A DNA stretch of 45,934 nucleotides from an uncultured Clostridia bacterium (lineage in GTDB: Bacteria; Bacillota; Clostridia; Oscillospirales; Acutalibacteraceae), in NCBI GenBank assembly GCA_947585615.1, contig CANPXD010000005.1:1-45934 (forward strand), written 5' to 3'. Positions 36,122-45,820 of the stretch are shown one piece after another. Numbering within the stretch: position 1 is the stretch's first letter; the number at the start of each line of letters is the position of its first letter. A model generated the notes under the pieces. It was not told where the DNA came from and did not search any database. It saw nothing but the letters and a program-made list of their open reading frames with translations. The position numbers and the translations under genes were made by a program.

Positions 36122-36197
36122 AGGGGTATAGCTCAGTTGGTAGAGCAGCGGTCTCCAAAACCGCGTGCCGAGGGTTCAAGTCCTTCTGCCCCTGCCA
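36122..36197 (+). tRNA. tRNA-Trp (CCA anticodon), integration site of the mobile element
   Basis: A 76-base cloverleaf with encoded CCA. The acceptor AGGGGTA pairs with TGCCCCT, the discriminator is G, and the anticodon CCA is at 36155-36157. Its last 45 bases (36153-36197) recur exactly at 45776-45820. The left copy restores a complete, functional tRNA after integration. Confidence 0.97.
36153..36197. repeat. attL: 45-base direct repeat within tRNA-Trp
   Basis: Identical over 45 bases to 45776-45820; the match covers the anticodon loop to the CCA end. The base before (T against G) and those after differ, which fixes the repeat ends. Confidence 0.96.
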
Positions 36198-36201
36198 CCG
36201 A

Positions 36202-36245
36202 AAAGTCTTGAATTTCGCTTAATAATGCGGATTTTAAGACTTTTT
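36202..36245 (+). terminator. Terminator after tRNA-Trp, supplied by the element
   Basis: AAAGTCTT (202-209) pairs with AAGACTTT (236-243), followed by T-rich sequence. It lies inside the element, so the tRNA uses an element-borne terminator after integration. Confidence 0.7.
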
Positions 36246-36265
36246 ATTTTTTTCGTTTTTGTTCC

Positions 36266-36312
36266 TGCAAACAATTACATATCAATTTGCAAACAATTTG
36301 CAAACAGCAAAC
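36266..36312. repeat. Left-end arm-type repeats for integrase
   Basis: Copies of TGCAAAC or GCAAAC start at 36266, 36288, 36299 and 36307, two of them within TTTGCAAACA. The same motif recurs near the right end (45599-45650). Placement inside both att sites suits arm-binding sites of a tyrosine recombinase. Confidence 0.75.
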
Positions 36313-36322
36313 GAAAATCCGG

Positions 36323-37480
36323 CTATATTACAATCATTTTATTAAGACTATCTGCGATTTGAATTTTTGATGTTTTATCACTATGAGCATAAAACTTTAG
36401 TGTCGTTGATGAGCTACTGTGTCCTAACCATTCTGCTACTTGAACAACAGAAAAACCGTTGTTTAAAAGATTACTTGCAACGCTGTGTCTCAAATCGTGC
36501 AATCTTATGTGTGGTAGGGTACTTTTAATGATAATTTTATGAAACGTTCTTGATAAATAATTTGGCGCTATAACATTTCCGTCTTCCCAAGTACACACGA
36601 AATTATTATCTACATAATTATTACCAATTAGCTCTTTTCGCTTTCGTTGAAGCTCTTTGTGCTTTTTAAGCATTTGATAAACATCTTCTGTCAGTGGTAA
36701 TGTTCTGTAACTGCTTTCTGTTTTAGGAGTATCAATATAATTCGTATTTTCTCCTTTATGCTGTTGGAGTGTCTGACTTATAGTGATTGTTCTATTAACA
36801 AAATCTATACTATTCCAGCTAAGGCCTAATACTTCGCTTCTTCTGAAACCGTATATTGCGCAGAGTGTTACAGGTATTTCCACACTTGAACCTTTGAATA
36901 GCAGCAACAAATCTTGAAGCTGTTTCGGATTGAGAAACTCACTTTTATATGTTTCTGTTTTTGGAGTTTTCGCATAAGACGCAGGATTATAATGTATAAT
37001 ATCCTTTCGCACAGCGTCAGATAACGCTTTACTGATATTTTGATGATGATGTTTTATTGTTGTGTGTGATAATGCTTCATCACTTCTTAACTTGCTGTGT
37101 GGCTTTAATTTGAATTTGTAATAATCTTCAAGGTGATAAGGCTTTAGCTCTTGTATTAAAATATCTTTACTTTCAAAATAAGGTATGATGTGATTTTCCA
37201 TATTGCCTTTGTAAGAACGATATGTATTAGGTTTAACTTCTAATTCAATTTCCTTAATCCAATTTTTAAAATACTCTGCAACTGTTAAATCACAGTATTT
37301 TACATTTTTCTTATCCCATTCCAAAAGTAAATCATTTAAAATCTTTTCGGCTTTTTTCTTATTACCTCTAACGGCTAATTTGGTATTATACCATTTCTGC
37401 CGTCTTTCGCCATATTCATTATAATAACTAATTATAGCGTGATATGTTCCGTTTCTTTCAAACAAACTTCCAGTTGCCAT
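36323..37480 (-). CDS. int: Tyrosine recombinase integrase
   Basis: The integrase catalyses site-specific recombination between the element and the tRNA-Trp 3' end. The 385 residues show an N-terminal arm-binding domain (about 1-60), a SAM-like core-binding domain (about 63-165) and the catalytic domain with R213, H328-x-x-R331, H354 and the nucleophile Y364 (contexts GFRRSEVLGL, LHDLRHS, LGHSSSSTTLKFYAH). It is complete. It lies next to attL and is transcribed toward it. GGAGC precedes the ATG. It resembles the Tn916/ICE Int group. Confidence 0.97.
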   Translation of the reverse strand: MATGSLFERNGTYHAIISYYNEYGERRQKWYNTKLAVRGNKKKAEKILNDLLLEWDKKNVKYCDLTVAEYFKNWIKEIELEVKPNTYRSYKGNMENHIIPYFESKDILIQELKPYHLEDYYKFKLKPHSKLRSDEALSHTTIKHHHQNISKALSDAVRKDIIHYNPASYAKTPKTETYKSEFLNPKQLQDLLLLFKGSSVEIPVTLCAIYGFRRSEVLGLSWNSIDFVNRTITISQTLQQHKGENTNYIDTPKTESSYRTLPLTEDVYQMLKKHKELQRKRKELIGNNYVDNNFVCTWEDGNVIAPNYLSRTFHKIIIKSTLPHIRLHDLRHSVASNLLNNGFSVVQVAEWLGHSSSSTTLKFYAHSDKTSKIQIADSLNKMIVI

Positions 37481-37573
37481 TATTCGCTCCTTTCTTTGAA
37501 ACGGACAAATATATTCATTTGTATAATAGCATTAATATTTGCCCGCTTCAAGTATTTTAAATTTAATTTTAGA

Positions 37574-37756
37574 TTAGCTTATATCAAGAAAGTTAATAAC
37601 GCTTTTCTTTGGTATAATGTATCTGTTTCCGATTCTTAATGTCTTTATCCTATTTTCTTTTAAAAGTTTATATGCTGCTGACCTGCCAATCCTTAAAATT
37701 TTTTGCAAATCATCAACAGATAAAATATCAGGATAATTATTTAACAAATTTTGCAT
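37574..37756 (-). CDS. xis: Excisionase-type helix-turn-helix protein
   Basis: A 60-residue MerR-like/excisionase-family DNA-binding protein (LSVDDLQKILRIGRSAAYKLL, then RIGNRYIIPKKSVINFL). Such proteins steer tyrosine integrases toward excision by bending DNA at the arm region. AAAGGA is 7 bases before the ATG. It lies between rep and int, transcribed toward int, the usual order in Tn916-like and mobilizable elements. Confidence 0.9.
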   Translation of the reverse strand: MQNLLNNYPDILSVDDLQKILRIGRSAAYKLLKENRIKTLRIGNRYIIPKKSVINFLDIS

Positions 37757-37799
37757 ATTTAATTCCTTTCAGAAATTATTTTTAAATTTAGGTATAATT

Positions 37800-38948
37800 T
37801 TAGTTAAACATCGAATTAAATAAATCGACGTTGTCAATCGTTGAGATATTAGGACGATTAGCGTCTGAAAAAATATTATCTTTGTCTTCATTAGGCACTG
37901 CGTTATATTTAAAGTTTTTACTGTCATATTCCATAACATGAATGTGGTCATAGTCCATTTTAATAACAAGTGATAATCTTCGTGATAGCTGTTTAAAACT
38001 ATCTGTTATCGACGTATAATTACCAAAATAGCAATTATAAAATGCGTCTGGACTATAAGGCGTTGTTATTATTATTAAATCGCAGGTTAATTCTTTATCG
38101 CTATATCTCGACGGAAGCATTTTATTGATTTCAAACGGGTCAAGTATTCTTAGTAAATCAGAAAATTCAATAATCCTCGGTCTAAGCTCGTCAATAATTA
38201 AGGTATGTTCGCCTAAATATTTTTGAAAATAATCCTTTGATGAACCTGTTAAATAATAGGGCTGGTTTCTTTTTTCGGCATAATATTTTGCAAAGGTCGT
38301 CTTACCTGTACCTGCTTCCCCGTATATCCAAATTACTGTTACTCGTTTGCCCTGTGCAATCATTTCTTTTTTAAAATCTTTAGATTGTTTTTTTAATAGC
38401 TTAGAATACACATTTTCTATTTGAGTTTTATATCTTCCATATTGAGCGCCTGTTATTTGTTTCTCAACTTCTTCTTTAGTAATCAACCCTGAATATAACA
38501 AATCAAGTAAGTTCTTTATTTTCATAGAATTTTTGCTTGAAACCTCTGACAAGATGTTTTCAAGAAGCTCAATATAATCAAAATTTGCGATTACCCGAGC
38601 GGGATCGTACTGATACTTTGTTGTTGCGGTATTTGTTCTATGTACCAGATAAGCATAGCCGTTATTGCTGTTTCCTTTCCACGCTTCAATATATTGCGGC
38701 TTATCGTTAAGAAGGCTTGCAACTTTATTAAGAGAGCGTGCATTTTGAAAACTCATCATAACGTGCACATGAGCTTCAATAAGATTACCTTTTTCGTCAG
38801 TGTCTTTGTCGTGTAGAATCAGGGCATACTTTTTAGGCTTAATTTTATTTTCAATTATATCAACAAGCTTGTCTATCGAACCGGCAGGAAGATGTTTTAA
38901 CTGCTGTTCATACATCATATTTTTGTAACTGTTATTTTTACTGCTCAA
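37800..38948 (-). CDS. rep: Replication initiator/relaxase with HUH endonuclease and SF3 helicase domains
   Basis: The N-terminal half is a Rep_2-type rolling-circle initiator: the HUH motif is H60-V-H62 (EAHVHVMMSF) and the probable catalytic Tyr is Y100 in AYLVHRT. The C-terminal half is an SF3-type helicase: Walker A GEAGTGKT at 210-217, Walker B IIDE at 251-254, and motif C near LIIITTPYSP. This two-domain plan matches Reps of bacterial plasmids related to CRESS viruses and relaxases of some streptococcal mobilizable elements. The start is uncertain: I prefer the TTG at 38948 (382 aa) because AAGGAG lies 11 bases upstream. The frame is open to 39050. Hairpins at 38999-39120 lie just upstream. 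Confidence 0.88.
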   Translation of the reverse strand: MSSKNNSYKNMMYEQQLKHLPAGSIDKLVDIIENKIKPKKYALILHDKDTDEKGNLIEAHVHVMMSFQNARSLNKVASLLNDKPQYIEAWKGNSNNGYAYLVHRTNTATTKYQYDPARVIANFDYIELLENILSEVSSKNSMKIKNLLDLLYSGLITKEEVEKQITGAQYGRYKTQIENVYSKLLKKQSKDFKKEMIAQGKRVTVIWIYGEAGTGKTTFAKYYAEKRNQPYYLTGSSKDYFQKYLGEHTLIIDELRPRIIEFSDLLRILDPFEINKMLPSRYSDKELTCDLIIITTPYSPDAFYNCYFGNYTSITDSFKQLSRRLSLVIKMDYDHIHVMEYDSKNFKYNAVPNEDKDNIFSDANRPNISTIDNVDLFNSMFN

Positions 38949-38998
38949 ATCGGTGTCGTCTCCTTTCTTATTAAATTTGGTTTTTTCATATTTTTTTA

Positions 38999-39049
38999 AC
39001 ACCGTAACACCATTACGGGTGTGTGTGCATAACAAGCCCTGCACACACA
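38999..39049. repeat. Paired hairpins upstream of rep, candidate nicking origin
   Basis: ACACCGTAA pairs with TTACGGGTGT (one bulged G; 38999-39022), and TGTGTGTGC (39020-39028) pairs with GCACACACA (39041-39049) around a 12-base loop. The two share bases, so they are alternatives. HUH enzymes often nick in or near such hairpins; this role is an inference. Confidence 0.55.
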
Positions 39050-39081
39050 AAATATGTATTATTACTAATGTTTGACACCTA

Positions 39082-39120
39082 ACACCGCTGTTGCTTTTGT
39101 TTCACAACGCACAGCGGTGT
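39082..39120. repeat. 10-bp stem hairpin between the translocase and rep genes
   Basis: ACACCGCTGT (39082-39091) and ACAGCGGTGT (39111-39120) are perfect reverse complements around a 19-base loop. It lies 8 bases after the translocase stop, so it could be a terminator or part of the replication/transfer origin. T-runs are weak. Confidence 0.6.
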
Positions 39121-39127
39121 CCGATTT

Positions 39128-40528
39128 TTAGCTGTGATACTTGTTAAGCAATCTGCCAAGCTCAGCGTATACCTTAAAAGTCATACGCGGAAAATGCACA
39201 AATGATACTCTGTCGTGTAATCCGTCTGTGCTGGAAAACCAAGCGTCGCCTGCATTATAAACTCTGCCGTTATTAAAATCTTTTAGCTTGTCACTATCCC
39301 AGATTAGTCGTCCTTCATCAAGTGTAGGCTTAAAAAGAATTTTTGTTGTCATTGCAGAACGTAACATTGCAGGTAGACCACCCTCAGATACACTGGCTTC
39401 TGCTATGCTGATTATTGCAAAGCACCCTGCACTTGCGCCCATTGTTACAATACGCTTTAGCAAGCTGTCAAATGTTGCAAGGCAGTAAGTTGGGCAGTTT
39501 TTACTCGGTTTTGATGGAAACATAGTTCTACAAGAAACATATTCATCTATAAATATAAATGAAGCGTGCATTCCTGCATCCCACCATTTCACCGCATCGC
39601 CGGTTTTTTCTGACAATGTATTTAGTGTTTGTTGACGCTTAACAATGATATCAGAAAACATTTGCATAGCTTTTAATATTCCTTTTGCTTCGCCGTCTTT
39701 GTCAAGAGTAACGACCGTTGGCAAACGGCTTAATTCCGCTTGCTTGGGGTCAATTATAATAATTTTACTGTCAAAATTATCTTTTTCATAGAGAAGGGAC
39801 TGAATTAACAGGCTTATTATTCCTGTTGTCTTGCCGCTTCTTGTTTTACCGGCGCATAGAATACTGCCTGATGTTCGTAAATCAATATATGTATTCTTTT
39901 GAACAGCAAGCGTTGCCGGATTAGTCTGCTTCATTTTTTTTACTTCATTAAAAGTCAAACTAAGGTCTTGAGTTACATCTTCAATGCGAAATTTAACATT
40001 ATTAAAACTTATATCGGTATCGGTTTGAGTTACCGCATAATTAGCAAATCTTTTTTTGTTTAAAGCTGATGAAATACTGCTTGTTATATTTTGCATATTC
40101 TCAACCGTACAAGAAACTACTTTTACTGTAAGCGTGAACACGCCAAGCTCGCTTACTTCACATTTTATCTTAGGTAAGCGTTCTCCGTCTTTTAGGTTTA
40201 GCGGATTGCCGTATTCGTAGCTGCATAACACCTTACGTACCATATATTTGATACGAGTTTTATCAGGCATTATAAAGTGGATTGTAATGGCTGTTACAAT
40301 AAGTATAGCACCTATAATAAGTGAAGCACGACTTATTGTTGTAAGTGCGCATACAAGCCATTCTATAACAACTTGAAACAAATCAATATTAAAAGATATT
40401 GTTTTTAATACAAGTCTTAATATTAACGTAAAAAGGGCAATTAAAAGGCTACACATACCTAATAACAAAAGTTTCGTATTAGGTAATAAAAAGGCAACAA
40501 TTGACCTTTTTTTATTAAAATAATTCAT
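39128..40528 (-). CDS. FtsK/SpoIIIE-type DNA translocase, TcpA-like coupling protein
   Basis: The 466-residue protein has two N-terminal membrane segments (about 17-40 and 50-85), a linker domain, and an FtsK/HerA ATPase domain with Walker A GKTRSGKT at 227-234, IIIIDPKQAELS, and Walker B FIFIDE near 325-329. In mobilizable elements such proteins dock the nucleoprotein to a transfer channel (TcpA role); in actinomycete elements an FtsK-like protein alone moves DNA. Which applies here is open. It lies upstream of rep and after two small genes in the same direction, matching the transfer module of firmicute elements. Confidence 0.88.
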   Translation of the reverse strand: MNYFNKKRSIVAFLLPNTKLLLLGMCSLLIALFTLILRLVLKTISFNIDLFQVVIEWLVCALTTISRASLIIGAILIVTAITIHFIMPDKTRIKYMVRKVLCSYEYGNPLNLKDGERLPKIKCEVSELGVFTLTVKVVSCTVENMQNITSSISSALNKKRFANYAVTQTDTDISFNNVKFRIEDVTQDLSLTFNEVKKMKQTNPATLAVQKNTYIDLRTSGSILCAGKTRSGKTTGIISLLIQSLLYEKDNFDSKIIIIDPKQAELSRLPTVVTLDKDGEAKGILKAMQMFSDIIVKRQQTLNTLSEKTGDAVKWWDAGMHASFIFIDEYVSCRTMFPSKPSKNCPTYCLATFDSLLKRIVTMGASAGCFAIISIAEASVSEGGLPAMLRSAMTTKILFKPTLDEGRLIWDSDKLKDFNNGRVYNAGDAWFSSTDGLHDRVSFVHFPRMTFKVYAELGRLLNKYHS

Positions 40529-40537
40529 GATTTTTTG

Positions 40538-40891
40538 TTATGGATTCACAATCTGAATATCTTCACATTTTATGCTTAGACATTCGTTGTATTGCCCGTA
40601 AACTTTTGCCTTAACTTTCAAAGGCTTAATAAGAGAGTTCACCGGTATATTCATCCGTTTACCTACTTTAAAGGTAACGGATGAATACCGATTTGTGGTA
40701 TTCAAGATGTCACCATTATTATCAATATATTTTGTTTTATCATTGATAATAACAGCTTCAACTTTTGTACCGATAACCATTTTTGTATCATGATCTACCC
40801 ATTCTCTGCAGTCGGTGACAGAAAACTGTTTGTCAGCAGAAAATGATTCCCAATCAAAATGTAAAAATTGGGTTAATCTTTTTAATGCCAT
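40538..40891 (-). CDS. Small accessory protein of the mobilization module
   Basis: A 117-residue soluble protein, rich in beta-strand patterns in its second half (SSVTFKVGKRMNIPVNS, KVKAKVYGQYNECLSIKC). I recognise no named family with confidence; position and size resemble the DUF961/HelP-like helpers found upstream of coupling proteins in ICEs, which assist rolling-circle replication. This comparison is by context only. It starts one base into the preceding gene's stop and lies 9 bases before the translocase gene, so these genes are one operon. Confidence 0.75.
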   Translation of the reverse strand: MALKRLTQFLHFDWESFSADKQFSVTDCREWVDHDTKMVIGTKVEAVIINDKTKYIDNNGDILNTTNRYSSVTFKVGKRMNIPVNSLIKPLKVKAKVYGQYNECLSIKCEDIQIVNP

Positions 40892-41112
40892 TATTTTTCA
40901 CCTCCTTTCTCGTCAAGAGGGATTGATAAATCTAATCCCTCATAAACGATACTTCTTATAATTGACATAATTACATTTATACCGTAATTATGTTCATATG
41001 GTTCTAAACAATCAATGTTTTCAACATCGATTGTAATTGAACCTTTCACATAAGAATCTATAAATGCTTTTATTTTTATTAAAGCATTTTTTTCCTTATC
41101 TATTGATGCCAT
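40891..41112 (-). CDS. Small protein of unknown function in the mobilization module
   Basis: A 73-residue acidic protein (IDSYVKGSITIDVENIDCLEPYE near the middle). No family recognised. The AAAGGA-type ribosome-binding site before the ATG, the tight junction with the next gene and consistent direction support it as real. It appears to be the first well-supported gene of the transfer operon. Confidence 0.65.
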   Translation of the reverse strand: MASIDKEKNALIKIKAFIDSYVKGSITIDVENIDCLEPYEHNYGINVIMSIIRSIVYEGLDLSIPLDEKGGEK

Positions 41113-41183
41113 GTATAAACATCCTTTCTATTAATTTTATGTTAATTAACGGGGTGAAACCGCCCTCAAAAATATAACTGTAC

Positions 41184-41243
41184 CTAAGTAGGATGTAATT
41201 TCAGAAAATACTCTGATTTAAAGCAACAACTTATAAAATTCAT
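41184..41243 (-). CDS. Possible 19-residue peptide with a strong ribosome-binding site
   Basis: The ATG at 41243 follows a near-perfect GGAAGGAGGTG with 7-base spacing, and 19 codons lead to TAG at 41184. The peptide contains a Cys pair (MNFISCCFK). A longer in-frame reading to 41396 exists without a ribosome-binding site. It may be a leader peptide of the transfer operon or only a remnant. No homology is claimed. Confidence 0.35.
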   Translation of the reverse strand: MNFISCCFKSEYFLKLHPT

Positions 41244-41487
41244 TTTTTTCACCTCCTTCCGGGTTATCTTAATACAATCTTTTATGTATGTAGAAATTGC
41301 TTTTTTCCTGAACCTGTAGTGCCACTTAAAAAATATGGAATTTTGCTTTAACAAGTAGTTCAAGTTTATTTGCAATTCCCCTTGGCATAGAGCCAAGAGC
41401 CATACTCAATAAGTTTTTTAATTTGAATTTAACACCTCCAACTTAATAATAGAATTTTGTAATGTTTTAAAAACATAAAAAGAAAAA

Positions 41488-41578
41488 GGATTATAACATA
41501 TTTATGCATACAACCAATCTGCGCAAGCAATTGCTAAAGGCGCATTTCGGCCGTTTTAACATAAACGTGTTATAATCC
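41488..41578. repeat. 19-base inverted repeat in the large intergenic region
   Basis: The arm at 41488-41506 (GGATTATAACATATTTATG) matches the reverse complement of 41560-41578 at 17 of 19 positions. Each arm contains a TATAAT on outward-facing strands, and AGCAATTGCT (41526-41535) is a palindrome in the loop. It may be the control region of the transfer operon or an origin. The stretch 41244-41859 otherwise shows no gene with a good start and ribosome-binding site. Confidence 0.65.
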
Positions 41579-41859
41579 ATAATCAAATGATACTATTACA
41601 TAGGTGACTTGTCAATAGGAAAAAGAAAATTTCTGTTAATATTAACAAAAAAATTACTTGAAGCGCAATAAAAATTGGCAATAATTAACAATGAATAAAT
41701 ATAACAAATATTATAATAAATTGTATAAATATACAATACTTATATATCTTTGTAATACTATACTAATCTATGAAAAAAAATCTTTGATTCTGAAAGCCGT
41801 TCTGTTCGAAATAGTCGACTTTTTCTGTTTGAGGATTGTCTGTAAGTCATTCCCGCATT

Positions 41860-42108
41860 TTAACGTTCTTCCAATTTGTATGATTTCAGTTCAATGAGCA
41901 TACCTGAACCATTATGATTCATTTCAACGGTTTTGTGAAATACATTTTCGGCGTCAATAAAGAATAAGCCTATATATGGGCTTTCACTGTCGCCGAGTTC
42001 GCCGGTTCTTTTAATCGTTGTGACAGATACTTTGTATATGAGATTTGTCACAATGTTGATTTCCGTATCGGCGTTATTTAGCTTTTTTGATAATTGTTCT
42101 GTAGACAT
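41860..42108 (-). CDS. Hypothetical 82-residue protein
   Basis: The protein shows alternating beta-type segments (EINIVTNLIYKVSVTTIKRTG, SPYIGLFFIDAENVF) and a conserved-looking GSGMLIELKSYKL end. No family recognised. CGGAG lies 8 bases before the ATG. It is the last gene of the minus-strand cargo group and follows a hairpin at 42173-42204 that may separate it from the lipoprotein gene. Confidence 0.65.
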   Translation of the reverse strand: MSTEQLSKKLNNADTEINIVTNLIYKVSVTTIKRTGELGDSESPYIGLFFIDAENVFHKTVEMNHNGSGMLIELKSYKLEER

Positions 42109-42172
42109 TTTTATACTCCGTGGTTTTTATTCCCCATTTTGATTTTTTTTTGTCGGTTTTTGATAAACTTTA

Positions 42173-42204
42173 TGGCTGGACACAGTTTTATCTATGTCCA
42201 GCCA
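42173..42204 (-). terminator. Hairpin after the Thr-rich lipoprotein gene
   Basis: TGGCTGGACA and TGTCCAGCCA form a perfect 10-base stem, 15 bases after the stop on the minus strand. The T-run downstream is poor. Confidence 0.6.
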
Positions 42205-42218
42205 CGGTTTAGCGGATA

Positions 42219-42953
42219 TTATTTCTTTACGGCTCCGCAACCCGTGCATTCGTAATGGTCAATGACCTTTTTCGTACCGACTTGTACTTTTTCGTAGCCG
42301 ATAAGTTCTTCTACGAGATGACCTGTACCATAATGGTCGTGGACTTTGAGATGGTCGCCGGATACAGCTACTTCACTTTGCCCTGTTTTACGACCGATTT
42401 CAGTGAAGTCTATTCCGCATACAGAACAGTAGTAATGTGTTACGCATTTGTATCGAGGCTGTTCCTCGTAGACGGGTTCCTCACGGTATACGGCTTTGTA
42501 AGTATGCTGATGTACCGTGGTTGCAGGTTTTGCTTTTTGTGTCGTTGGAGCCTTTGTAGTCGAAGTCGACTTTTTAGTCGCTGTAGGCTCTGTTGTGCGT
42601 TTCTGTGTTGTTGCAGAAACAGTGGATTTTTTAGTCGTCGTTTCAGCGGTATGTTTCGTTGTAACAGACGAAGCGGATTTGGTTGTAACGGGTTTCGCCG
42701 GTTCTACGCCTTTTTTGTCAGTCGGAGTTTCGGCATTTTTTTGTTCGGTAACAGTTTGTCCGTCGGAAACGGATGTTGTTTCTGTTTCTGCTGTGTCGCC
42801 TTTTGCGGTAGTGCCGTCGGTCTGTGTGATGTCCTGTGTGATTTCGGTATCATTTTGCGTTACCGTTGATTCCACGGGCGCACGAGCCGTACAAGCCGTG
42901 AGAAAGCAGACCGCGAGAACTACGAGCAGAATGCTTATGAGTTTCTTTTTCAT
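42219..42953 (-). CDS. Thr/Lys-rich lipoprotein with a C-terminal Cys/His surface domain
   Basis: The 244-residue precursor has a signal peptide with lipobox FLTAC (Cys near residue 21). A long low-complexity linker rich in Thr, Ser and Lys (about 25-150, with repeated TTK/TTQK units) reaches out from the cell surface. The C-terminal domain (about 150-244) has two CxxC pairs (YYCSVCG and YECTGCG) and several His, which suggests a zinc-binding fold. Domains with this His-Thr-Tyr and CxxC pattern occur in clostridial surface proteins as I recall. Role unknown; as element cargo it may affect cell contact or surface exclusion, a guess. Confidence 0.8.
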   Translation of the reverse strand: MKKKLISILLVVLAVCFLTACTARAPVESTVTQNDTEITQDITQTDGTTAKGDTAETETTSVSDGQTVTEQKNAETPTDKKGVEPAKPVTTKSASSVTTKHTAETTTKKSTVSATTQKRTTEPTATKKSTSTTKAPTTQKAKPATTVHQHTYKAVYREEPVYEEQPRYKCVTHYYCSVCGIDFTEIGRKTGQSEVAVSGDHLKVHDHYGTGHLVEELIGYEKVQVGTKKVIDHYECTGCGAVKK

Positions 42954-43070
42954 AGTAATGTACTCTCCTTATTATAAAATTTTTGAAAATATTATTTTCA
43001 CTTATAATCCCGGCACGGTTTACCGTGCTGTTTTCTCAGATGTGATATATTAAGAATTTCGGGAAAACAA

Positions 43071-43091
43071 GGCAACTCGTTACGAGTCGCC
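43071..43091 (-). terminator. Terminator overlapping the stop of the 51-residue gene
   Basis: On the minus strand GGCGACTCG and CGAGTTGCC pair around TAA, followed by TTGTTTT. A second hairpin, GCACGG-TTTA-CCGTGC, lies at 43013-43028. Confidence 0.65.
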
Positions 43092-43235
43092 CTTATTATC
43101 TACCGTGCAAGTTATACTTGTTTGATTATGTGTTTCGGTACTGTCGTCGGCAAAAATGTGATAGGCGAGGATTCCTGTTCCTATCGTGAAACCTATGATA
43201 ATAGCTGTGACGCTTAATAACATTGTTAAAAGCAT
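43080..43235 (-). CDS. Small single-span membrane protein
   Basis: A 51-residue peptide with a membrane helix at about 5-27 and an acidic, polar tail (FADDSTETHN). GTG at 43238 or ATG at 43235 could start it, 14-17 bases after the stop of the upstream lipoprotein gene; the ribosome-binding site is weak, so it may depend on coupling. A terminator at its stop codon supports it as a real gene end. No family recognised. Confidence 0.5.
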   Translation of the reverse strand: MLLTMLLSVTAIIIGFTIGTGILAYHIFADDSTETHNQTSITCTVDNKGDS

Positions 43236-43252
43236 CACATTGATATGTTTTT

Positions 43253-44317
43253 TTAGCCTTTTATATAAGAATTGATGTCAAAAATCACTTTTTTATTTTT
43301 TTCTAAAACATCATCAACATTATCAACTGAAACATTTTTAGTGCCAATGGGATCAATGGTAAATTGTTCAAGATTTTTTCCTCTTGTGAGAAGATAATAT
43401 AAATTATATGTATTACCGTTTTCAATATCAACTCTATATCCAAAATAATATGAATCATATATTTGAAACCCTGTTGTTCCAAACTCAATTAAAGGTCCAA
43501 ACAATTCGATCTTGTTTAATTTAAGACTATATGTATCCTGTATATATGCAAAAGAATTATCAATAACTGGTGCATATTGCTCTACTAATGATTCAGAAAT
43601 AGCATTGTTACCTGTAGAATCAGTATTAATAACAATATTATACTGCAATGTTGGATTCGATGTATAATCTTCAATCGCTTTTATAGCCATTTTTCCTGCT
43701 TCAGAAGATTTAAAACATTCAATAAGGCCATTGTAAATATTATTGGCGGCTTTTTTATAATCGCCTGTTGTAAAACATTCAATATAATTATTCTTAACTA
43801 CATCTCTTAACTTATTTCCAAGTTCACCGTTCCAATCTGATAATTCAGGAACAAAATCATAGAAATTTTCATCAGATATATCAGAATATCTATGCCCGTA
43901 AATATCTATGCTGTTTTCATACTCGATTTTTAACTTTTCTTCCCATTCTTTCTCAGAATATATTGTAACATTTTCTATCAATTCGTTATAAGCCTTTTCA
44001 TTAGATTCTTTAACAAGTTCTTTAAAACTATTCTCTGCCATTTCCTCTATTTCAGAATCTTCCATATTTTCTAATTCACCTAAAGTCATTTCAGGATAGT
44101 ATATCATATTTGTACCATCTTCTTTGAAGATGAGAACAGATTCAACTTTAGCTTCTTTTGCAGGAATGGCGCTATCCTCGCTATTTACTAAAAGAAAAAT
44201 TCTGTGTTTATCTTCTAAATATCCGCTAAGCGTTGTATATTTAGATGATTTGCCACAGCCGACAAGCATTACTGCTATGAGAGCCACGCTTAAAATGACT
44301 GATAATGATTTTTTCAT
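43253..44317 (-). CDS. Lipoprotein of unknown function (element cargo)
   Basis: The 354-residue precursor has a typical signal peptide with lipobox LVGC (Cys near residue 22). The mature part has an acidic helical first half (EMTLGELENMEDSEIEEMAE) and a mixed second half. No named family recognised. I start it at the ATG at 44317 because AGGAGG lies 10 bases upstream; the longer frame to 44374 lacks a site. Its promoter carries the XRE-type operator at 44395-44431, so the divergent regulator probably controls it. Confidence 0.78.
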   Translation of the reverse strand: MKKSLSVILSVALIAVMLVGCGKSSKYTTLSGYLEDKHRIFLLVNSEDSAIPAKEAKVESVLIFKEDGTNMIYYPEMTLGELENMEDSEIEEMAENSFKELVKESNEKAYNELIENVTIYSEKEWEEKLKIEYENSIDIYGHRYSDISDENFYDFVPELSDWNGELGNKLRDVVKNNYIECFTTGDYKKAANNIYNGLIECFKSSEAGKMAIKAIEDYTSNPTLQYNIVINTDSTGNNAISESLVEQYAPVIDNSFAYIQDTYSLKLNKIELFGPLIEFGTTGFQIYDSYYFGYRVDIENGNTYNLYYLLTRGKNLEQFTIDPIGTKNVSVDNVDDVLEKNKKVIFDINSYIKG

Positions 44318-44394
44318 AGTTTTTAATATCCTCCTAAAAATATAAATTTGCAGCCAAAACCACACATTAAACATTGCACCGGCAATAATAAATA

Positions 44395-44446
44395 CTCAGT
44401 ATATTGAGCATATTCAAATTATACTCAATATCTTTAGCATAGTCAA
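44395..44446 (-). promoter_or_regulatory. Promoter of the cargo lipoprotein with overlapping operators
   Basis: On the minus strand TTGACT (44446-44441) and TATAAT (44423-44418) are 17 bases apart. ATATTGAG (44401-44408) and CTCAATAT (44424-44431) form a dyad across the -10 box, and CTCA-N6-TGAG (44395-44408) overlaps it. The divergent XRE protein is the natural candidate to bind. Confidence 0.7.
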
Positions 44447-44497
44447 GAGATTAGTTATGTTATTTTATTCATATATTATATTAAGAGATGATAGCAT

Positions 44498-44707
44498 ATG
44501 ATTTCTTACGCTCCGTTTTATAAAACCTTAAATAAAAAAGGCATAACTGAATACGCCCTGATTTTTAAGCACGGAATTCCCGCAAATACGCTCCATAGAA
44601 TGAAGCACGGCGAAGCAATTACCACAAAAACGCTTAATGAATTATGCTTCATTCTTGATTGCAGAGTTGAAGATATTTTAATTTATATAAAGAATGATAA
44701 AGAATAA
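44498..44707 (+). CDS. XRE/Cro-type helix-turn-helix regulator
   Basis: A 69-residue Cro/CI-like protein (KGITEYALIFKHGIPANTLHRMKHG, ITTKTLNELCFILDCRVEDIL) of the short YozG-like type: a DNA-binding domain only. It is divergent from the lipoprotein gene and probably represses from the dyads at 44395-44431. AGAGATGA is a weak ribosome-binding site. A terminator follows. Confidence 0.9.
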   Translation: MISYAPFYKTLNKKGITEYALIFKHGIPANTLHRMKHGEAITTKTLNELCFILDCRVEDILIYIKNDKE

Positions 44708-44737
44708 AATCCTGCTTGTTAAAGGCAGGATTTTTTA
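44708..44737 (+). terminator. Terminator after the XRE gene
   Basis: AATCCTGC and GCAGGATT form the stem, followed by T6. Confidence 0.9.
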
Positions 44738-44744
44738 TTTAATA

Positions 44745-44773
44745 TTGATTTTTAAAACAATAACTGTTATTAT
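44745..44773 (+). promoter_or_regulatory. Promoter of the toxin mRNA
   Basis: TTGATT (44745-44750) and TATTAT (44768-44773) are 17 bases apart, giving a leader of about 100 bases before the ATG at 44882. Confidence 0.65.
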
Positions 44774-44796
44774 ATCAACAGAGCTTTTGCTCTCTT

Positions 44797-44858
44797 GGAG
44801 TTATCACTGATAACGGTAGGCGGTTAGTCCTCTTAATAAAAAGAGGGCAATGCCCTCT
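44797..44858 (+). promoter_or_regulatory. Structured 5' leader of the toxin mRNA
   Basis: CCTCTT/AAGAGG (44829-44846) and AGAGGGC/GCCCTCT (44842-44858) are mutually exclusive hairpins just before the ribosome-binding site. The segment 44797-44830 is mirrored at 44995-45020. Alternative folding may control toxin translation. Confidence 0.55.
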
Positions 44859-44881
44859 AATTGATTTTAGGGGGTGATGCT

Positions 44882-44962
44882 ATGGAATATTTAGCTTTTA
44901 TAGTAATTATTCTTATCGTAGCCACGGGCTACATAATAAGCATAAAAAACGACCGCCCATAA
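44882..44962 (+). CDS. 26-residue membrane peptide, candidate type I toxin
   Basis: The peptide has one hydrophobic helix (about residues 4-21, rich in Ile/Val) and a charged end (SIKNDRP), the plan of Fst/holin-like type I toxins that depolarise the host membrane. GGGGGTG lies 5 bases before the ATG. Its stop codon is in the loop of a hairpin that serves as a two-way terminator. An antisense promoter of consensus quality faces it from the other side. The locus is too small for routine gene calling. Toxicity is an inference from architecture. Confidence 0.68.
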   Translation: MEYLAFIVIILIVATGYIISIKNDRP

Positions 44963-45027
44963 GCTCCACACTTAGGCAGTCGTTTGTCTAACTTGGGCTA
45001 ACCGTCTATCGGATAACTCCTTGTTCA
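44940..45027 (-). ncRNA. Candidate antisense antitoxin RNA, about 85 bases
   Basis: From a consensus promoter (TTGACA 45061-45056, TATAAT 45038-45033, 17-base spacer) a minus-strand transcript would start near 45027 and end at the hairpin and T-run at 44949-44944. Its 3' end is complementary to the 3' end of the toxin mRNA. No reading frame of note lies in it. RNA evidence is needed to confirm the ends. Confidence 0.6.
44945..44985. terminator. Two-way terminator shared by toxin mRNA and antisense RNA
   Basis: AACGACCGCC (44948-44957) pairs with GGCAGTCGTT (44975-44984) with one mismatch. A strong T-run exists on the minus strand and a weaker one on the plus strand. Confidence 0.75.
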
Positions 45028-45032
45028 TTTTT

Positions 45033-45061
45033 ATTATAATAAGCTGATTTCAATTTGTCAA
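45033..45061 (-). promoter_or_regulatory. Consensus promoter of the antisense RNA
   Basis: TTGACA and TATAAT at 17-base spacing, the best promoter match in the window. Confidence 0.8.
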
Positions 45062-45157
45062 CAGTCAAGTTTTATTCCGCTTGATTTATATGGGATATTT
45101 TTTAATCGGTTTTATATCAACTCTCACTTATGCTTTTCATTATACCAACAGCAATAA

Positions 45158-45234
45158 TTTGTCAAATCTCGACTGAGATTACGACAAAGAAAAAACTTTT
45201 TTCTTCATTATATGTTAAAAAGCTTTTTTCTTTG
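45158..45234. repeat. Hairpin cluster in a non-coding stretch
   Basis: TTTGTC/GACAAA with inner AATCTC-GACT-GAGATT forms a hairpin at 45158-45188. CAAAGAAAAAA (45185-45195) pairs with TTTTTTCTTTG (45224-45234) and overlaps it. The stretch 44963-45309 has no gene; besides the antisense RNA it holds these structures, whose role (single-strand origin, regulatory leader) is unknown. Confidence 0.5.
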
Positions 45235-45309
45235 CTTGACAAATTATCTTATGTTGGTGACTTCTCCTTGCACTCGTAAGAGTAGTAATTATTTAAAGGA
45301 GTTGTCAAA

Positions 45310-45528
45310 ATGAAACTGACATACGAAATTAACAAAATTGATGAGTTCAAGGCTTGGAGCGGGGCAGTGGAAACCGTCAAAGCGATTATTGAAAATGATA
45401 AGCAAGATGAATTTATGTTCATTCTTGAAGACATTTTCCCTAATGGTTGTACTGAAACAGAGCTTAACGATTTCCTTTGGTTTGATGATGATTTCATCTT
45501 TTCCTCACTTGATATAAAACAAGATTAA
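45310..45528 (+). CDS. Hypothetical 72-residue protein
   Basis: An acidic, Phe-rich protein (DEFMFILEDIFPNGCTETELNDF, then FDDDFIFSSLDI). The helical pattern and Asp/Glu content are of a kind seen in small regulators or anti-restriction proteins of mobile elements, but I recognise no family. AAAGGAG is 8 bases before the ATG and a strong terminator follows, so it is probably expressed. Confidence 0.72.
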   Translation: MKLTYEINKIDEFKAWSGAVETVKAIIENDKQDEFMFILEDIFPNGCTETELNDFLWFDDDFIFSSLDIKQD

Positions 45529-45540
45529 GCACATAAAAAA

Positions 45541-45572
45541 TATCCCTGCTTTGTTAAATCAAGGCAGGGATA
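45541..45572 (+). terminator. Terminator after the 72-residue gene
   Basis: TATCCCTGC and GCAGGGATA form the stem, followed by AAAATTTTG. The T-tract is moderate. Confidence 0.75.
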
Positions 45573-45598
45573 AAATTTTGAATATATTGTCCGTTTAC

Positions 45599-45650
45599 TG
45601 CAAACAAAATTAAGATTTTTTGCAAACAAATTGCAAACATTTTTGCAAAA
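45599..45650. repeat. Right-end arm-type repeats for integrase
   Basis: TGCAAAC-type copies begin at 45599, 45621, 45632 and 45644, mirroring the set at the left end in the same orientation. They lie about 130 bases inside attR. Confidence 0.72.
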
Positions 45651-45775
45651 AAAATGTTAAGCTATTGTTATATCGTTGTGATTTTATACAATGTAATTTT
45701 AAAAAAATTGTGCAAGTTAAACTAAAAATCACTAAAAAACACCAGAAAACATTACTTGTAAAGCTATTTGAAACG

Positions 45776-45820
45776 CTCCAAAACCGCGTGCCGAGGGTTC
45801 AAGTCCTTCTGCCCCTGCCA
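45776..45820. repeat. attR: copy of the tRNA-Trp 3' end
   Basis: Exact 45-base match to 36153-36197. It is a tRNA fragment lacking the 5' half, so not a gene. Confidence 0.96.

Follow-up and report, generated by a model that had tools for sequence, protein, structure and literature searches.

A hairpin with a conserved loop as the candidate nick site of a YLxH-type Rep in an integrated element of Clostridia

The window analysed here, a 45,934-nucleotide stretch of DNA from an uncultured Clostridia bacterium, carries at 39020-39049 on the minus strand a hairpin that we read, at a probability of about 0.82, as the double-strand (leading-strand) origin of an excised tcpA-rep-xis-int element, its loop being nicked by the element's Rep. 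Comparison with related sequences makes this hairpin very probably the nick site for the start of Rep-driven replication, because the loop is kept in distant relatives and in free plasmids while the stem changes wholly. Taken together, an invariant loop, a changing stem, adjacent iterons and an HUH gene downstream give the region the layout of a rolling-circle leading-strand origin. Neither the type of element nor the family of Rep is new: elements with this class of Rep make up 15 of 144 in one survey of streptococci, and related elements also occur in genomes of Clostridia and Bacilli. The accessible text of the literature on such elements describes no nick site for Reps of the Class_IME_4 type, which is why the relaxase role of this class has stayed an assumption. 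Among papers outside subscription journals, searches for the loop sequence gave none recognisable by its title as dealing with a plasmid origin or a mobile element.

The integrated element and its Rep

The hairpin lies within a 9.6-kb integrated element (36153-45820) bordered by identical 45-bp repeats (36153-36197 and 45776-45820), the left copy of which lies at the 3' end of the tRNA-Trp gene (36122-36197). A terminator-like hairpin follows the right repeat in the window and stands directly after the tRNA in relatives without the element. The backbone genes are all on the minus strand, in the order tcpA-rep-xis-int. They comprise a tyrosine integrase (36323-37480; PF00589, 2.5e-24); a small HTH_17 protein between rep and int (37574-37756; PF12728, 5.3e-10), a probable excisionase whose excisionase-family domain scores slightly below the cut-off; rep itself; an FtsK/TcpA-like coupling ATPase (39128-40528; PF01580, 1.3e-9), assigned to TcpA from its FtsK_SpoIIIE domain and position, not from a TcpA model; and, upstream of tcpA, two small genes (40538-41112) for proteins of 117 and 73 aa with no Pfam match. 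The coupling gene adjoins rep in most related loci, the 117-aa protein is kept in most of the longer ones, and the 73-aa protein is found in three. Two sister elements, L007 and L008, have the backbone and the att core in common with the window element. In what we regard as the best explanation, 36153-45820 belongs among the integrative and mobilizable elements with the tcpA-rep-xis-int layout, its mobility being predicted.

The rep gene (37800-38948, minus strand) encodes an HUH origin-binding domain joined to an SF3 helicase, of the YLxH type. Both Pfam matches, Rep_OBD (PF01719) at 3.9e-14 and the helicase PF00910 at 9.2e-9, are above the curated cut-offs. The start given by the ORF caller, a TTG at 39050, falls within a hairpin; judged from the sequence, the likelier true start is the TTG at 38948, preceded by AAGGAG, since the Reps of relatives begin at that place. 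Numbered from this probable start, the motifs HVH (60-62), AYLVH (99-103), GEAGTGKT (210-217) and IIDE (251-254), which an earlier note on this DNA had assigned to one protein, are all located in the Rep.

Against solved structures, a profile of 17 Rep relatives matched pMV158 RepB at 1.2e-6 and the Reps of CRESS viruses at 8.8e-18. RepB His39, Asp42, His55, His57 and Tyr99, which we take to be its catalytic residues, align with Rep His46, Asp49, His60, His62 and Tyr100, as counted off the printed profile alignment. A predicted model of the Rep (mean pLDDT 85) resembles the origin-binding domain of RepB (TM 0.71, by target length) as well as the ATPase domain of a circovirus Rep (TM 0.77); its pTM is only 0.55, which leaves the relative position of the two domains uncertain. 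Tyr100, Leu101 and His103 of YLVH are invariant across the 17 relatives. The second His of HVH is likewise invariant among Rep relatives, and the first (residue 60) is lost in three (L020, L023 and L024). At residue 60, L020 and L024 have Asp and L023 is Gly or Tyr-adjacent, and the nick hairpins of all three are intact; the metal site may tolerate change at this residue, or another residue may substitute for it. As sole query the window Rep had no match in viral contigs, and alignment-based queries of the same kind of contig returned one only. A sample of 399 genomes from the phylum of Sporolactobacillus yielded just the member already known.

A conserved loop in a changing stem

The minus strand from 39049 to 39020 reads TGTGTGTGCA-GGGCTTGTTA-TGCACACACA, a perfect 10-bp stem closed by a 10-nt loop at 39039-39030 (z = -3.5; 0 of 200 shuffles as stable). 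At 26 of 27 related rep loci a perfect hairpin of 7-16 bp stands upstream of rep with the loop core GGGCTTGTT, replaced by GGGCTAGTT at L007 only, and 18 distinct stems carry this loop. As a few of the 26 loci stem from one contig fetched a second time or from nearly identical strains, conservation is better judged by how many different stems there are. The hairpin lies 50-190 nt ahead of the start of the Rep match, with one exception at 351 nt (L025).

The loop motif also precedes rep in free plasmids with Reps just 26%-33% identical to that of the window, GGGCTTGT being found in plasmids of Staphylococcus, Lactiplantibacillus, Lactococcus and phytoplasmas. The bearers include plasmids of S. 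epidermidis and L. plantarum (Rep 32%-33% identical) and S. warneri (29%), and the loop GGGCTTGTC is seen in phytoplasma plasmids (29%-30%) and in Lactococcus pQA504 (26%). A chromosomal locus with a Rep 31% identical (L005) has the motif as well, and pCPa has a weak variant only, GGGCTGTC. The more distant pMG2B-1 and L030 carry within a hairpin a pMV158-type loop, ACTACGAC, which at L030 stands in place of GGGCTTGTT and agrees with the TACTAC(C)G/A site described for pMV158 (PMC3541243). The earlier note had proposed three hairpins upstream of rep as a candidate origin of replication or transfer, and had suggested a search for a conserved loop in homologous elements. That comparison, once made, upholds the proposal for 39020-39049, for which a replication nick site is therefore strongly supported, and goes against it for the hairpins at 38999-39022 and 39082-39120.

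Loop lengths of 9-16 nt led us to drop column-wise covariation on a MAFFT alignment in favour of counting base pairs and of a control in which arms were swapped between loci. Pairing extends over 7-16 bp between true partners and mostly over 1-4 bp between swapped arms; the few long pairings among swapped arms, not checked singly, are put down to related stems. When 24 distinct hairpins are compared, every Watson-Crick pair type is represented at seven of eight stem positions, and three of the four types at the remaining one. The fetched DNA, 378 kb in all, has 29 GGGCTTGTT sites, of which 27 belong to the nick hairpins; the remaining two have stems of just 3 and 2 bp. When 30 motif sites were sampled from whole genomes regardless of context, the stem did not exceed 5 bp at 27 and two were known loci. 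The last has a 9-bp stem and is flanked by a TcpA gene and a Rep gene absent from all search lists, a locus reached by the motif alone; such origins can thus be sought by means of the loop motif. The arm-swap and random-site controls exclude chance as the source of the loop conservation. On its own the 9-mer often arises by chance, its counts in 11 whole genomes being often little above those of a reversed-pattern control, and the motif is therefore meaningful only inside a hairpin; GGGCTTGTTA is found once in its own genome.

Probable Rep-binding iterons flank the hairpin. On the minus strand the tandem repeat GGTGTTACGGTGTTA (38997-39011) corresponds to the GTGYYA tandem repeat that directly follows the nick hairpin in most relatives. 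By a strict test, two GTGYYA copies at the right spacing are present at 11 of 18 loci and almost never in shuffles, and most of the remaining loci have one copy or a near form. Upstream, a second iteron-like pair, GGTGTTAGGTGTCA (39073-39086, minus strand), is matched by GTGYYA at the corresponding position in most relatives and overlaps the 3' arm of the hairpin at 39082-39120. An inverted iteron-like copy, CGACACC (38952-38958, minus strand), lies beside the rep ribosome-binding site; GTGACACC or a close form recurs in many relatives, and in many the inverted copy (TGACACC-like) overlaps that site, so that it is possibly a site of autoregulation. Distant plasmids do not share the iterons, as expected if these are lineage-specific binding sites.

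Proposed mechanism, transfer and competing readings

From this arrangement we infer iteron binding, nicking at a particular bond and replication by the Rep. Through its HUH domain the Rep would bind the GTGYYA iterons that flank the hairpin on either side, and the hairpin would extrude on the rep-coding strand. Tyr100 would then cut within GGGCTTGTTA, most likely as CTTG/TTA, and stay on the 5' end. The cut is probably at CTTG/TT (39033/39032), a placing made only by analogy with the G that precedes the pMV158 cut. The freed 3'-OH would prime rolling-circle synthesis towards rep as the fused SF3 helicase unwinds the duplex, and TcpA could hand the nicked strand with its bound Rep to the conjugation pore of a helper. 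The role in replication is argued from the presence of the same hairpin beside distant plasmid Reps, including one on a plasmid typed as having its own MOBP relaxase. Points against the reading as a whole are the ACTACGAC loop of L030, the loss of the first HVH His in L020, L023 and L024, the 351-nt distance at L025 and the failure to find a TcpC helper gene in the element's genome.

For transfer, we lean towards mobilisation from the same nick site. This is plausible because TcpA is present, because no second relaxase candidate is found among the element ORFs tested, and because in ICEBs1 an initiator of a related kind, MobT, serves both replication and transfer. The main competitor, possible if less probable, is that the hairpin is a replication origin only, transfer proceeding from another site (for example near 41488-41578), through the relaxase of a helper, or not at all. 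It gains from pQA504, which has the same loop and is yet typed with a separate MOBP relaxase; from a structure at 41486-41580 more stable than its shuffles (z about -3.2); and from the element's own genome, in which no TcpC-type conjugation gene was found. Besides the single relaxase candidate and the dual role of MobT, it has to contend with the TcpA gene that directly adjoins rep and the hairpin at most loci, and with the 41488-41578 repeat, absent from nucleotide matches to the sister elements. That repeat, upstream of the small genes before tcpA, is inverted, with 19-nt arms 89% complementary and 53 nt apart, and could be a lagging-strand origin, an attenuator or an operator.

That the hairpin at 39020-39049 instead acts as RNA or in transcription between tcpA and rep, as a terminator, an attenuator or a processing site, is highly improbable, common as hairpins are between two genes of the same strand: its loop is invariant though the stem is rewritten, and in plasmids where different genes lie upstream, rep is still preceded by this loop. 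A terminator or a known RNA was rejected, as there is neither a T-run nor an Rfam match. An alternating switch of the first two stems controlling nicking is hardly credible, since the stem at 38999-39022, drawable and sharing three bases with 39020-39049, is bulged and matched in stability by 24 of 200 shuffles (z = -1.28), and relatives carry plain direct repeats there.

The mutual exclusion of these two stems, as described in the earlier note, holds on paper and lacks support as a switch, and of its three stems 39020-39049 and 39082-39120 are exact. The stem at 38999-39022, neither significant nor conserved, was rejected as a functional hairpin; its sequence consists of two direct repeats, probable iterons. 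The accessory hairpin (39082-39120, minus strand), directly after tcpA, has a 10-bp outer stem and z = -5.7, with 0 of 200 shuffles as stable, and lacks a T-run. Counterparts of 7-14 bp are present at 16 of 18 loci (shuffle p <=0.02 in 14), and at these 18 loci they have neither a conserved loop nor a T-run: the structure is kept and the loop sequence is not. On the plus strand at about 39057-39065, TATTATTAC was considered as a geminivirus-like nonanucleotide and is taken as chance, because it lies outside any hairpin and is not kept in relatives.

Relation to known systems and other features of the element

The loop of CRESS-DNA viruses is a nonanucleotide of the TAATATTAC kind, from which the window loop differs in sequence. 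A hairpin with a conserved loop and a Rep of HUH and SF3 domains are features that the window shares with those viruses (PMC8780604); no ORF tested in the element matched a capsid gene. The pMV158 origin is similar in that the nick loop belongs to a hairpin that precedes rep, on the rep-coding strand, with direct repeats nearby and a related HUH domain (RepB structures PDB 3dkx, 8amt and 8amu). The differences are that the window Rep has a helicase whereas RepB has none, and that the loop GGGCTTGTTA, with its core GGGCTTGTT, does not contain the pMV158-type nick sequence TACTAC(C)G/A, as given in the available part of PMC3541243.

Among plasmid Reps, the closest description is that of the YLxH supergroup, pCRESS4-8 (Kazlauskas 2019, PMC6668415, in its accessible text), in which an HUH domain with a YLxH motif III is fused to an SF3 helicase, here in an integrated element. 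The window Rep has YLVH as motif III, HVH as motif II and Walker A and B motifs (GEAGTGKT, IIDE), and is placed there by these motifs, not by a tree. The accessible text of PMC6668415 gives no origin motif for pCRESS4-8. The element itself resembles Class_IME_4, the Rel_PF01719-PF00910 IMEs of streptococci (Coluzzi 2017, PMC5357655, as far as available), in which the PF01719 and PF00910 Rep is a putative relaxase. Common to both are a tyrosine integrase, a small xis, such a Rep and TcpA upstream, in the compact order TcpA, relaxase, excisionase, tyrosine integrase, with insertion at a gene end between direct repeats. The hosts differ, Clostridia here and streptococci there, and the available part of PMC5357655 describes no origin for Class_IME_4, so the comparison covers genes and insertion.

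It is an even call whether GGGCTTG/TY is the nick signature of one entire branch of YLxH Reps with a helicase, covering integrated elements of Clostridia as well as free plasmids from Bacilli and phytoplasmas, stems and iterons being lineage-specific and the same site serving as origin and oriT in the integrated elements. If so, this relaxase class would have its first oriT. A loop of 9 nt that persists through full rewriting of its stem offers an exact and cheap oligonucleotide assay, and the motif may help to trace the change of nick site in plasmid Reps related to those of CRESS viruses.

Outside the backbone, a Cro/C1-type regulator (44498-44704) and a 72-aa protein of unknown family (45310-45525) are 82%-84% identical in the sister elements L007 and L008; the Rep, only 59%-61% identical there, is less conserved than either. 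A 26-aa hydrophobic ORF at 44882-44962, MEYLAFIVIILIVATGYIISIKNDRP, has inverted sequence around it and recalls small type I toxins, without Pfam support. In a genome of the same genus, a different element of 10.2 kb (L083, G1077:C12:71500-82700) is flanked by further copies of the 45-bp tRNA-Trp core; its integrase is distant (35%), and no Rep of the window kind is detectable in it. Two probable lipoproteins, one of them Thr/Ser-rich, appear as cargo of the window element (42219-42953 and 43253-44374); neither has a Pfam match, and both have weak relatives in the element of L008.
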